Shown piece after piece: positions 17,078-20,356 of a stretch of DNA of 46,977 nt. Source of the DNA: Nesterenkonia alba DSM 19423 (GTDB taxonomy: Bacteria; Actinomycetota; Actinomycetes; Actinomycetales; Micrococcaceae); the NCBI RefSeq assembly GCF_000421745.1, contig NZ_ATXP01000017.1, positions 1 to 46,977 of the forward strand, in the 5' to 3' direction. How positions within the stretch are numbered: the stretch's first letter is position 1; each line of letters begins with the position of its first letter. The notes beneath the pieces were generated by a model. The model saw only the letters and a program-made list of their open reading frames with translations, ran no database searches and was not told the origin of the DNA. The position numbers and the translations under genes are program-made.

Positions 17078-17527
17078 ATGACTGAGACCGCACGACTGCT
17101 GATCCTGCACGGGCCGAACTTGAACTTACTCGGAACCCGCGAACCAGGCATCTACGGCACCTCCACTCTGGATGACATCAACGCCCAGTGCCGCACTACA
17201 GCAGCAGAACACGGCGTCGAGGTGGACATTGTGCAGTCCAACCACGAAGGCGAGCTGGTCGAGGCGATCCAGGCGGCAGCCGGGCGCGCTGACGGCGTCG
17301 TCATCAATCCAGCGGCCTACACCCACACTTCGGTGGCGATCGCCGATGCCTTGGCGGCCGTGGGCCTGCCGCTGGTGGAGGTGCACCTGTCCAATGTGCA
17401 CGCCCGGGAGGACTTCCGCCGGCACTCCTACGTCTCTCCGCTCGCCAGTGCGGTGATTGCCGGAGCCGGTCCGGCCGGCTACCGCTACGCCATCGACCAC
17501 CTCGCACACCTGCTCCGCACCACCTAA
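17078..17527 (+). CDS. aroQ: 3-dehydroquinate dehydratase, type II
   Basis: A 149-residue type II dehydroquinase, catalysing the third step of the shikimate pathway (3-dehydroquinate to 3-dehydroshikimate). The N-terminal motif [16 protein letters not shown] carries the catalytic Tyr and the Arg of the mobile lid. [12 protein letters not shown] forms the active-site floor and VEVHLSN supplies the catalytic His. Length is typical and the enzyme normally forms a dodecamer. No other shikimate gene is adjacent, so it stands alone between acs and the palindrome-flanked nuclease gene. Confidence 0.95.
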
Positions 17528-17542
17528 CCCTCCCCCGCTACC

Positions 17543-17576
17543 CCCACCCCGTCCCACCCCGTCCCACCCCGTCCCG
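17543..17576. repeat. Short tandem repeat of a 10-bp CCCCGTCCCA unit
   Basis: About three copies of CCCCGTCCCA lie directly after aroQ and just before the first palindrome of the 17.6-18.9 kb cassette. A slippage-prone homopyrimidine tract; no function is assigned. Confidence 0.6.
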
Positions 17577-17592
17577 GCCCTTCTTCCCAGCT

Positions 17593-17654
17593 TTCCCACG
17601 CAAAATGCCCCTTCCCACGGGAATTCCGGTGGGAAACGGCACTTTGGGTGGGAA
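17593..17654. repeat. 62-bp imperfect palindrome, copy A (3' side of nuclease gene)
   Basis: The element opens with TTCCCACGCAAAATGC and closes with GGCACTTTGGGTGGGAA, which pair as outer arms. An inner TTCCCAC/GTGGGAA pair surrounds a GGAATTCC core. By hand count 57 of 62 bases are identical to copy B at 18784-18845, in the same orientation. After the arm both copies continue with similar tails containing CTAGAGG or CCAGAGG. Copy A ends 25 bp before the stop codon of the minus-strand nuclease gene. It could fold as a long hairpin in RNA or as a cruciform. Confidence 0.85.
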
Positions 17655-17679
17655 GAACTAGAGGTCCGATGGGTACACC

Positions 17680-18705
17680 TCACTCGGTGAGCGGCTGCAC
17701 CCCAGCTCGCCGCAGCCGCTGCAGGAGAGCCTGAGGCTGCCGCAGCTCTTGCCAACCCCAGCGCACCACGGTCCATCCAGATCGGCGCAGCGCGTCCTCT
17801 CGCCTCTTCTCCTGGTAGAGCACCTCTCGCGGGTCCCTCCCGTTGAGCATCTCGTCGTCGAAATACTTGGTACGCCCGTCGAACTCCCCGATCACGCGAG
17901 GTTTCTCCCAGCAAAAGTCCACCCGAAACTCACCCTCATCAGTACACAGCACTGATTGCAGCTGGGGTGCTGGAAAGCCTCGAACGTGAATGATGACCCG
18001 CGACCAGGACTCACCGGCCGATTCCGCGCGGGGATCGGCAAAGTCCCAGGCCGAGGACCAGTGTGCCCGACCACGGCGCGACCTGAGGTACGGCAACCAC
18101 GGCTCCACATCCAGCGTCTTCTCCCGGAGTGCCGCATCCAAGACGACCACGGCCGCGGCGAATGGCATTCGACTCACCGTGTCCACCAGCGCCAGTTCCA
18201 AGGGATCTACCCAGAAGTGGTCCGGCCCAACTATTTCCTCCAGCACAGCGGCAGGCAATTCCATGCGGGGAATGCGGTGCTCACCGGCACGCAGTTGCTG
18301 GCGCAACTGATGACGCGTCACGTTGGGCGGCAGAGCTGGCTCCACGTACTTTGCCGGGATGTTCTGCCCACCAGGCAGCTGTGGTGCCCGCCTCAGACCT
18401 GCCCGACCGTACGCGGAAGTCCTGGCGACCACGACAGGTGGCACGTGCAGGAGGGGAAGCCCGTAGAGAAGAAGGGCCGATTCACGGCAGAAAATTGCCG
18501 AAGGATTGTGCATCGCCTCAGCCGCAAGAGCCATGCGGTAGCGCGCCCAGGGAGGAGCCTGCTGCCAGGTGGCCGTCTCCACGTAGATGCCGTGCCGCAC
18601 CCGCAGCTTTTCCCTGCGCCCCACTTGCTGGCAGAGCAGCTTGCTGCCCTCAGCGTTGGCGCGGACTAGGGTAACGGCCTTGCTGTGCCGCGAGACAGTG
18701 GACAT
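17680..18705 (-). CDS. AbiEi-type winged helix plus DUF559/Vsr-like nuclease domain protein
   Basis: A 341-residue protein with two parts. The N-terminal region (about 1-90) resembles AbiEi antitoxin-type winged-helix domains, with a RHGIYVETATW segment and an ESALLLYGLP segment. The C-terminal region (about 250-320) carries a PD-(D/E)xK pattern of the DUF559/Vsr-like type: VDFCWEKPRVIGEFDGRTKY followed by YQEKRREDALRRSGWTVVRW, giving candidate catalytic Asp, Glu-x-Asp, Lys and Glu-Lys residues. Such proteins are common and scattered in actinobacteria; their activity is unproven. The ATG at 18705 has a GAAGCTGGGA run before it and is preferred to the GTG at 18732. The gene is flanked within 25-80 bp on both sides by near-identical palindromes and has no toxin partner gene next to it. 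Confidence 0.7.
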   Translation of the reverse strand: MSTVSRHSKAVTLVRANAEGSKLLCQQVGRREKLRVRHGIYVETATWQQAPPWARYRMALAAEAMHNPSAIFCRESALLLYGLPLLHVPPVVVARTSAYGRAGLRRAPQLPGGQNIPAKYVEPALPPNVTRHQLRQQLRAGEHRIPRMELPAAVLEEIVGPDHFWVDPLELALVDTVSRMPFAAAVVVLDAALREKTLDVEPWLPYLRSRRGRAHWSSAWDFADPRAESAGESWSRVIIHVRGFPAPQLQSVLCTDEGEFRVDFCWEKPRVIGEFDGRTKYFDDEMLNGRDPREVLYQEKRREDALRRSGWTVVRWGWQELRQPQALLQRLRRAGVQPLTE

Positions 18706-18783
18706 ATTCCCAGCTTCACCGGTTCGCACCACACAGCGCTACCTCCGCCCCGCCACCTGTGGAAAACGCCTAACCTCACGTTC

Positions 18784-18845
18784 TTCCCACGCAAAATGCT
18801 CCTTCCCACCGGAATTTCCGTGGGAAACGGCACTTTGCGTGGGAA
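18784..18845. repeat. 62-bp imperfect palindrome, copy B (5' side of nuclease gene)
   Basis: Same element as copy A at 17593-17654, in the same orientation, and a better palindrome: the outer arms TTCCCACGCAAA and TTTGCGTGGGAA match perfectly, and TTCCCAC pairs with GTGGGAA inside. It starts 78 bp upstream of the nuclease start codon. Confidence 0.85.
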
Positions 18846-18929
18846 GGACCAGAGGCCGGGGGCACTTTGCGTGGGAAGGACCAGAGGTCCGGTCCGAAAC
18901 GGCACTGGGAAACGGCACTTTGGGTGGGA
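18829..18929. repeat. Tandem partial copies of the palindrome's right arm
   Basis: A 27-bp stretch beginning GGCACTTTGCGTGGGAA and ending AGAGG occurs at 18829-18855 and again, identically, at 18861-18887. A third variant (GGCACTTTGGGTGGGA) follows at 18914-18929. Only right half-arms are duplicated. This looks like repeated partial copying or slippage at the edge of the cassette. Confidence 0.8.
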
Positions 18930-18945
18930 CAGCTGACGGAAAAGT

Positions 18946-18977
18946 TCGAGCTCAGCGGTCAATCGAGCTCAGCGGTC
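18946..18977. repeat. 15-bp direct repeat spanning the marP stop codon
   Basis: TCGAGCTCAGCGGTC occurs at 18946-18960 and 18963-18977, separated by 2 bp. The second copy contains the marP stop. It abuts the palindrome array and could be a small duplication made when the array was inserted; inference. Confidence 0.65.
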
Positions 18978-20147
18978 GATGCACTGGCCCGTACTGACCG
19001 TCTCAGTAAACACCTCCGGGGCAGTCAGCACCTCACCAATCTCCTCGGCGGTCACCGCAAAACCCACATTGGTGCCCTCCATCGCCCGGGCAAAGACAAT
19101 CCCCACCACGTGCCCCTCGGCGTCCACCAGCGGACCACCGGAGTTGCCTTGCCGCACATCGGCATTGACCTGGTAGACCTCCACGTCGCTGGGCGAACTG
19201 CCGTAGATGTTGTTGATCTGAGAGGTGTCCCGCGCCTGCACCACCGCCGGCCCGGCCATAAACGGCCCACCGGAGGGGAACCCCATCACGTAGCCGGACT
19301 CCCCCGGGTCCATCGGCCCACCCACCGGAGCAGCTCCTGCGTTCACCGGATCCACCGCCAGCAGGGCAATGTCCCGGGCGGTGTCAAAGTGCACCACCCG
19401 CGCGGCCAGCACCTGCCCATCGGGCATCTCCACCGTCGGCTCACTCACCCCGGCCACCACGTGCGCATTGGTCACCACCCGCGTGGAGGAGACCGCCACC
19501 CCGGAGCCGGTCTGCGACTGGCCGCACTGATGCGCCACCCCACTGATCCGCGCCACAGAGGCCGCTGTCTCCGCCGCCGACGCCGTCAGCTCACCATCTT
19601 CGGGAAGCTCGGCCGGCTCCTCCACCAACAGTTGGGCGATCTCCGGGATGTCTGAATCCATCACCACCCCGCGGACCTGCGCGAACATCCGCTCTGCTTG
19701 GTCAGGCACCACTGTGTCGATCGCCCGCAGCACCATCGACTGCTTCATGTGGTGGTTCACCGCCGGGAAACCCATCGCCTGGAGCGAGAAACTCAGCGCC
19801 GCGATAACGACGACGGCGACCACTGCGTTGAGCACCCCACCCACCACAGAGCCCAGGGTCCGCAGGGCAGAGGACCGGAACATCTTCTGCACTTCACGAC
19901 CCGCCGTCGAACCCACAGCGTGCCCGGCCACCATCAGCACGATCGCCGCACCGATGACGGCCACAACCCGCCAGGTGGGATCCGGCACCCAGCCGGCCAC
20001 AACCGGAATGGCGAAGAAGGCGGCCGTGGCCCCCACCAGGAAACCAGCCGCACCACCGAGCGTGACCCACAGCCCTCGCATCAAACCGGCCAGAAAAAAC
20101 CCGATCACCACGAGCACCAGCACGACGTCGAGCAGCGTGACCTCCAC
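18969..20147 (-). CDS. marP: MarP-like membrane serine protease (CvpA plus trypsin domains)
   Basis: A 392-residue protein with a four-helix CvpA-like membrane domain (about residues 1-125) and a periplasmic chymotrypsin-like domain. The triad is His229 (TNAHVVAG), Asp259 (RDIALLAVD) and Ser336 (RQGNSGGPLVD). In M. tuberculosis the orthologue Rv3671c protects against acid and oxidative stress by processing cell-wall enzymes. A GTG start at 20147 has GAGGAGG with a 6-nt spacer and is preferred over the ATG five codons upstream. The C-terminus ends in CIDR. The gene is divergent from crp, as expected for this neighbourhood. Confidence 0.92.
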   Translation of the reverse strand: MEVTLLDVVLVLVVIGFFLAGLMRGLWVTLGGAAGFLVGATAAFFAIPVVAGWVPDPTWRVVAVIGAAIVLMVAGHAVGSTAGREVQKMFRSSALRTLGSVVGGVLNAVVAVVVIAALSFSLQAMGFPAVNHHMKQSMVLRAIDTVVPDQAERMFAQVRGVVMDSDIPEIAQLLVEEPAELPEDGELTASAAETAASVARISGVAHQCGQSQTGSGVAVSSTRVVTNAHVVAGVSEPTVEMPDGQVLAARVVHFDTARDIALLAVDPVNAGAAPVGGPMDPGESGYVMGFPSGGPFMAGPAVVQARDTSQINNIYGSSPSDVEVYQVNADVRQGNSGGPLVDAEGHVVGIVFARAMEGTNVGFAVTAEEIGEVLTAPEVFTETVSTGQCIDR

Positions 20148-20356
20148 TGCCGACCTCCTCACTTCACACTGTCCGGGACCCGAGGACCGGCCAACCTGTG
20201 CACAGCCCGAACCCTAGGATGTCATAGCCTCCACACACACGTCCTCGGCGCAACACCTGGGAACACAACGGCCCTGACACTGCCGAGTCGGCCGACGACC
20301 TGGTAACTTCATAGGCAGTCCTGTCATACTGCTCACTTTTGAAGAACGGACCAGCC

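Follow-up and report, generated by a model that had tools for sequence, protein, structure and literature searches.

The 46,977-nucleotide stretch of Nesterenkonia alba DSM 19423 analysed here (contig NZ_ATXP01000017.1, positions 1 to 46,977; the window) contains a gene for a predicted AbiEi-like DNA-binding module joined to a Vsr-like nuclease (17680..18732, minus strand, 350 amino acids), bracketed by two palindromic elements, A (17593..17654) and B (18784..18845). Comparison across 30 genomes of the genus and a wider set of Actinomycetota favours, on balance, reading this cassette as the gene-bearing member of a palindrome family, in a partnership resembling that between the hairpin-forming doublets of repetitive extragenic palindromic sequences (REPs; doublets, REPINs) and REP-associated tyrosine transposases (RAYTs), with an unrelated enzyme in the place of the transposase. 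Such a nuclease gene with its own palindromes is a real, widespread and apparently undescribed partnership. We rate it as categorically new because neither enzyme nor element has the defining features of the known systems against which it was tested; there is a known analogue for how it likely works.

Palindromes at the nuclease gene

Palindromes A and B are each 62 bp long, are identical at 57 of 62 bases, and match their own reverse complements at 52 and 50 of 62 positions, respectively. Both carry the heptamer TTCCCAC at element positions 1 and 20 and its complement GTGGGAA at positions 37 and 56. Their likeness is not due to chance, as the match between A and B in a whole-genome search has E = 8.6e-20, and a scan of the window for palindromes of at least 44 nt returned these two and no others. 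Single-strand folding gave -22.8 kcal/mol (z = -6.5) for A and -24.4 kcal/mol (z = -8.0) for B, the symmetry of which extends over 82 bp (18774-18855); no Rfam match was found. A lies 25 bases from the stop side of the gene and B 51 bases from the listed GTG start. The initial annotation, which described near-identical 62-bp palindromes around a single gene and extra right-half arms beyond B, is borne out on both points, the arms being two further GGCACTTTGxGTGGGA units and a fragment at 18846..18929.

In the 2.59 Mb host genome, four solo copies of the window's element were located (C6:45265, C12:50586, C9:37863 and C5:161031), together with two paralogues of the nuclease gene that share 39-41% identity with it over the matched part. 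One paralogue, on C2, lies between copies of a different palindrome (64-68 bp), and three solo copies of that family were found. Upstream of the other, on C9, stand two palindromes in tandem, each about 58 bp long and of a third kind (identified by eye; the scans gave them no score).

The same arrangement recurs well beyond the host. The nuclease gene is present in 28 of the 30 genus genomes, and a sample was built from the best 80 of 521 relatives from named genomes plus further genes of the genus. In a cleaned set of 141 genes, restricted to those with at least 200 bp on either side, a palindrome of at least 44 nt was found in the flanking window of 82, compared with 18 of 1,548 control windows from the same loci; palindromes were upstream of 60 genes, downstream of 55 and on both sides of 33. 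The ungapped scan misses real cases (L019 and L183), so these counts are a scan result and no census. Across 111 loci (a set that held one duplicate pair), palindromes of at least 50 nt occurred at 1.75 per kb within 100 bp of the gene, at 0.6 per kb between 100 and 200 bp, and five times in approximately 457 kb beyond 1 kb. The left and right flanks of one gene resembled each other for 42 of the 70 genes from the genus and 56 of the other 72, relative to 37 of 410 shifted pairs, and at a score of at least 40 for 55 of 142 relative to 4 of 410 (four duplicate loci and five short-flank loci were dropped, and the windows took in 90-110 bp of the gene). Among the named loci that have palindromes of this sort are Arthrobacter, Nakamurella, Skermania, Nocardia, Blastococcus, Microbacterium and Pseudonocardia.

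Carrier genomes, empty sites and dispersed copies

Distinct places were counted by hand, flanking copies included, for three palindrome families in the 30 genomes, and all three are nearly restricted to genomes that carry the cognate gene or to one apparent ex-carrier. The window's family occurs in the host genome only. The L206/L207 family occupies 16 places in G004 and 13 in G010, both of which have the cognate gene, with one weak match in G016 and none in the 27 others. The L135 family occupies 10, 5, 9, 8, 10 and 5 places in G018, G019, G022, G023, G024 and G011, respectively, all of which hold the gene at one common locus; elsewhere it was found at five places in G003, at one each in G008 and G026, and in none of 21 others. 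Carrier genomes searched had 5-16 places each. The initial annotation had proposed a repeat-nuclease cassette analogous to REPs and RAYTs and had named general spread of the 62-bp palindrome as a test of it; the proposal is supported and withstood the tests set for it, the palindrome being confined to one of 30 genomes.

Sites that lack the cassette, which the initial annotation had also asked for, do exist. G003 is 95.5-96.4% identical to G022 on either side of the L135-clade locus, and palindrome, gene and palindrome are all absent from it; inspection by eye shows some ten bases kept at the left outer end and fewer at the right. This reads as a deletion of the cassette, making G003 an apparent ex-carrier, because the cassette is present in the closely related G022, G024, G018 and G019; if so, its five repeats would have outlived the nuclease. 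G008 and G026 are clean at the same locus, and a different nuclease lies beside this site in G010 and a decayed one in G004. In L275 (G004), the reverse strand at 660-1420 holds this decayed relic of a nuclease gene of the family, where relatives hold an intact cassette.

At the window's own locus, the cassette lies between two genes that converge on it, the left neighbour (17078..17527, plus strand), which we take to be aroQ-like, and the right neighbour (18969..20162, minus strand), presumably a marP-like protease. The gap between these genes lacks the nuclease in 17 of 28 relatives' loci, the left gene being out of reach in the other 11 and L179 lying outside the count, and measures 6-839 bp in the 17, the longest gap holding other sequence. 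When the gaps of four relatives were compared with nuclease flanks of their own genomes, there was a hint in G027 only (score 29 with L201), and the gaps of G016, G006 and G017 had no match to the fetched flanks. By eye, the gaps in L151, L159, L161 and L169 contain other palindrome-like sequences, of which only that in L169 (G027) resembles a fetched flank of its own nuclease.

Absence of the cassette as a unit in relatives is also what would be expected if the palindromes were the ends of a homing or insertion-sequence-like element that moves whole, with solo copies as scars of end-to-end deletion. The C-terminal predicted fold, which is nearest to a homing endonuclease, points the same way, as does the pair L180/L183 (65% protein identity), in which likeness starts shortly upstream of the gene and ends within the downstream palindrome, in differing neighbourhoods, with another copy of the element about 1 kb from L180. 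However, this is the single non-syntenic pair among gene pairs of at least 60% identity, solo copies far exceed genes (14 to 1 in G004), the one loss examined closely, in G003, left a scar short of a full palindrome, and target-site duplications were not found (see below). We therefore consider whole-cassette movement an improbable account of the pattern.

The edges of dispersed copies were defined using 21 fetched copies of the G004/G010 family, from 29 places. These copies align as an 82-bp element with sharp limits: the outermost position pairs in 20 of 21 copies, and the eleven columns outside it pair in 5-10 of 21, although a few inner columns also seldom pair. Flanking sequences differ by place, bar some that are orthologous between the two species. 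Changes on both arms were seen in 35 cells, compared with 18.6 when partners were shuffled and at most 17 when they were slid, and two of five covariation measures were weak (9 of 500 shuffles reached the value for pairs with two-sided changes, and 80 of 500 that for pair types). At one site that holds a copy in G004, G010 lacks it (flanks 92.0% and 90.4% identical) and has a different palindrome, which resembles the flank of a G004 nuclease (score 36). The solo-palindrome loci L253 and L264 of G004 and G010 (3084 bases each) are 95.6% identical, relative to approximately 80-89% at other orthologous solo loci, possibly owing to recent transfer.

At the site of the missing copy, several other relatives have ordinary-looking hairpins (by eye), and solo copies often lie between convergent genes. 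Both observations would fit palindromes that are host terminators or chromosome marks, with the nuclease as a bystander that uses such intergenic spots. Against this, no intrinsic terminator (a GC stem followed by a T run) was found in 17500-19000 and neither a terminator nor a promoter consensus at A and B. In addition, species within a single genus differ in their palindrome families, and palindromes are far denser at the nuclease gene than elsewhere in these loci. A bystander role for the nuclease is accordingly very hard to credit.

The enzyme and its candidate recognition word

The assignment of the protein domains is weak by sequence, with a PADLOC AbiEi match at E = 1.7e-4 and a Pfam DUF559 match at E = 0.0054, which is under the Pfam cut-off, and is better supported by predicted structure. 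The AbiEi fold was predicted at residues 18-232, and the C-terminal fold is nearest to the homing endonuclease I-Bth0305I, in agreement with the winged helix and DUF559/PD-(D/E)xK nuclease named in the initial annotation. Residues of the PD-(D/E)xK-type site are invariant in an alignment of 87 relatives, picked for spread from 139 usable proteins; the short protein L034, outside the alignment, has no ExDGxxK pattern. The gene probably encodes a DNA-cutting enzyme. Residues 1-12 were modelled with low confidence and, for this reason, the ATG at residue 10 is a likely start. Pfam matches included no transposase family for the window protein or the 87 relatives, NCBIfam offered no fitting family, and a sequence search of the PDB returned one meaningless match. 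Viral structures matched the nuclease part only, the best being a phage DUF559 protein (E 2.4e-4, query TM 0.20). No toxin gene was recognised among the neighbours of the nuclease gene, as the initial annotation had stated, and no methylase among the open reading frames between 12 and 24 kb of the window.

Palindromes of unrelated nuclease genes differ in sequence and often have a common plan. A heptamer repeated within one half at a 19 bp pitch was found in 77 of 220 half-arms, compared with 1.9 in shuffles, and at pitches of 20 bp and 18 bp in 25 of 218 and 16 of 228. Because the halves of any one palindrome depend on each other, counting by palindrome is fairer, and on this basis 69 of 120 gene-adjacent palindromes (51 of 85 genes) show the repeat, 46 of them at exactly 19 bp, and 51 do not. 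The 69 palindromes yielded 63 different heptamer strings, some of which are shifted or variant forms of one word. Far from the gene, the repeat was seen in 2 of 19 palindromes, one of them a copy of a local family. A fixed pitch with a changing word is expected if the word is read twice by a protein whose shape stays constant. Five otherwise different Nesterenkonia palindromes (L114, L018, L183, L185 and L215) have a common central CTATA(G)-like core.

Under the favoured reading, in which enzyme and palindromes are partners, the AbiEi-like part would recognise the heptamer of its family, of which each element has four copies, arranged as two direct pairs (pitch about 19 bp) that are inverted relative to each other, and the nuclease part would cut or nick at the heptamers. 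Cutting may then drive the copying of palindromes into further intergenic positions, many of them between convergent genes; the whole cassette would be copied rarely, and palindromes would persist for a time after loss of the nuclease. Binding, cutting and a causal role in palindrome spread are the inferred parts of this reading.

Passages in PMC7319586 describe AbiEi and Rv2827c binding two and four 23-bp inverted repeats, respectively, in their own promoters, which among the systems compared is the closest known binding behaviour. This supports DNA reading by the AbiEi-like part, and it is also the basis of the main rival explanation, in which the AbiEi-like part binds the heptamers as operators and represses its own gene, solo copies make up a small regulon or are dead, and the target of the nuclease is something else, such as phage DNA. 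Against such autoregulation, downstream palindromes are almost as common as upstream ones (55 of 141 genes) and have no obvious operator use, and dispersed copies have sharp edges. By rough calling, gene orientation could be determined at 12 of 17 loci around such copies (five were uncallable), with seven copies between convergent genes, four between co-directional genes and one between divergent genes. As an account of the palindromes as a whole, autoregulation is unlikely, and partnership remains the preferred reading.

Several observations weigh against that reading. A total of 59 of the 141 genes have no long palindrome in the scan, and solo copies away from the nuclease gene exist, as they do for REPs; the association of palindrome and gene recurs, with unrelated palindromes, beside related genes and is not strict. 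The single matches in G016, G008 and G026 are in genomes where no gene of that lineage was seen. The restriction to carriers supports dependence on the nuclease without proving it, because shared descent would also yield such a pattern. Cassettes and several solo copies keep their place across species, and any movement must consequently be slow. No target-site duplication was found in the 21 copies of the G004/G010 family (4-9 bp, two assumed edges), and no further copy of the palindrome at the C9 paralogue was found at E 0.01, in a search insensitive enough to miss the second tandem copy as well. Outside syntenic loci, palindrome similarity barely grows with protein similarity: with coding sequence excluded and a score of at least 25, the counts from low to high identity were 0/433, 4/1,017, 5/495, 1/144 and 1/37, and some of the best non-syntenic matches are shared gene fragments rather than palindromes. 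An earlier indication that palindrome likeness rises with protein identity in non-syntenic pairs was dropped, as the windows had held coding sequence at both gene ends.

Relation to known systems

The nearest known arrangement among those compared is that of REPs or REPINs with RAYTs (REPtrons and TIRtrons). Passages in PMC3116915, PMC8049555 and PMC3733652 describe REPs on either side of a RAYT gene and dispersed copies in the form of REPINs. Shared with these, as far as those passages go, are an enzyme gene flanked by copies of its own dispersed palindrome family, non-autonomous intergenic copies and long persistence. In contrast to the Y1 HUH tyrosine transposase of that system, the enzyme here has nuclease-like residues and predicted fold, of PD-(D/E)xK type with an AbiEi-like module, and unlike a REP the element is one palindrome of approximately 58-84 bp, often with a heptamer at a pitch of about 19 bp. 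The tag given for REPs in the part of PMC3733652 concerned, GTAG (or CGTC) at one palindrome end, was looked for as GTAG by direct reading of A and B only and is absent from both, which start with TTCCCAC and end with GTGGGAA. Membership in REP/RAYT is excluded because the enzyme differs and A and B lack the GTAG tag.

The window protein shares the predicted AbiEi fold with type IV AbiE toxin-antitoxin systems and differs from them in its added nuclease domain and in palindromes that lie on both sides and are dispersed. No AbiEii (DUF1814) toxin gene was recognised next to it, and the two neighbouring genes are also present in relatives that lack the cassette. The fold and conserved catalytic acidic residues of Vsr, DUF559 and I-Bth0305I proteins are present, by predicted structure and alignment; unlike these, the protein has its own AbiEi-like module, and the gene lies between genes, outside any intron or intein, where a homing endonuclease gene would lie in an intron, an intein or a conserved target that its product cuts when empty. 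Miniature inverted-repeat transposable elements and insertion sequences are likewise short inverted-repeat elements dispersed with a gene-bearing copy, but here neither a target-site duplication (in the one family examined) nor a match to a transposase family was found, and each end of the cassette is a complete palindrome. The available part of a 2025 survey of REPs in bacteria (PMC12306157) includes an Arthrobacter, and the words RAYT and nuclease do not occur in that part. In the open PubMed Central literature, with subscription papers and preprints outside its scope, no account of this nuclease family with palindromes was found among the matches listed.

A broader proposal, for which we see the chances as even, is that these cassettes form a second class of palindrome populations driven by an enzyme, one that evolved independently in bacteria and in which single-gene nucleases widespread in Actinomycetota each breed and maintain their own family through a heptamer at a pitch of about 19 bp, the word turning over fast and the geometry staying fixed. 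If this is true, a dedicated enzyme for small palindromic repeats evolved in bacteria at least twice, from unrelated proteins; a little-described nuclease family, of which the window member falls under the Pfam cut-off, would gain a concrete substrate; and a class of intergenic palindromes in high-GC genomes would be explained. Dozens of natural pairs of protein and word would then be available for learning how DNA is read by an AbiEi-like module. Since one genus contains carriers, an apparent ex-carrier and non-carriers, it also becomes testable whether these repeats are selfish or useful.

Two further features adjoin the cassette. A C-rich run with near-copies of CCCCGTCCCA (17537-17580) lies immediately ahead of palindrome A. 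On the other side, a 17-bp tandem duplication (two copies of TCGAGCTCAGCGGTCRA, 18946-18979) takes in the end of the marP-like gene; since both copies lie on one side of the cassette, they do not bracket it as a target duplication would.
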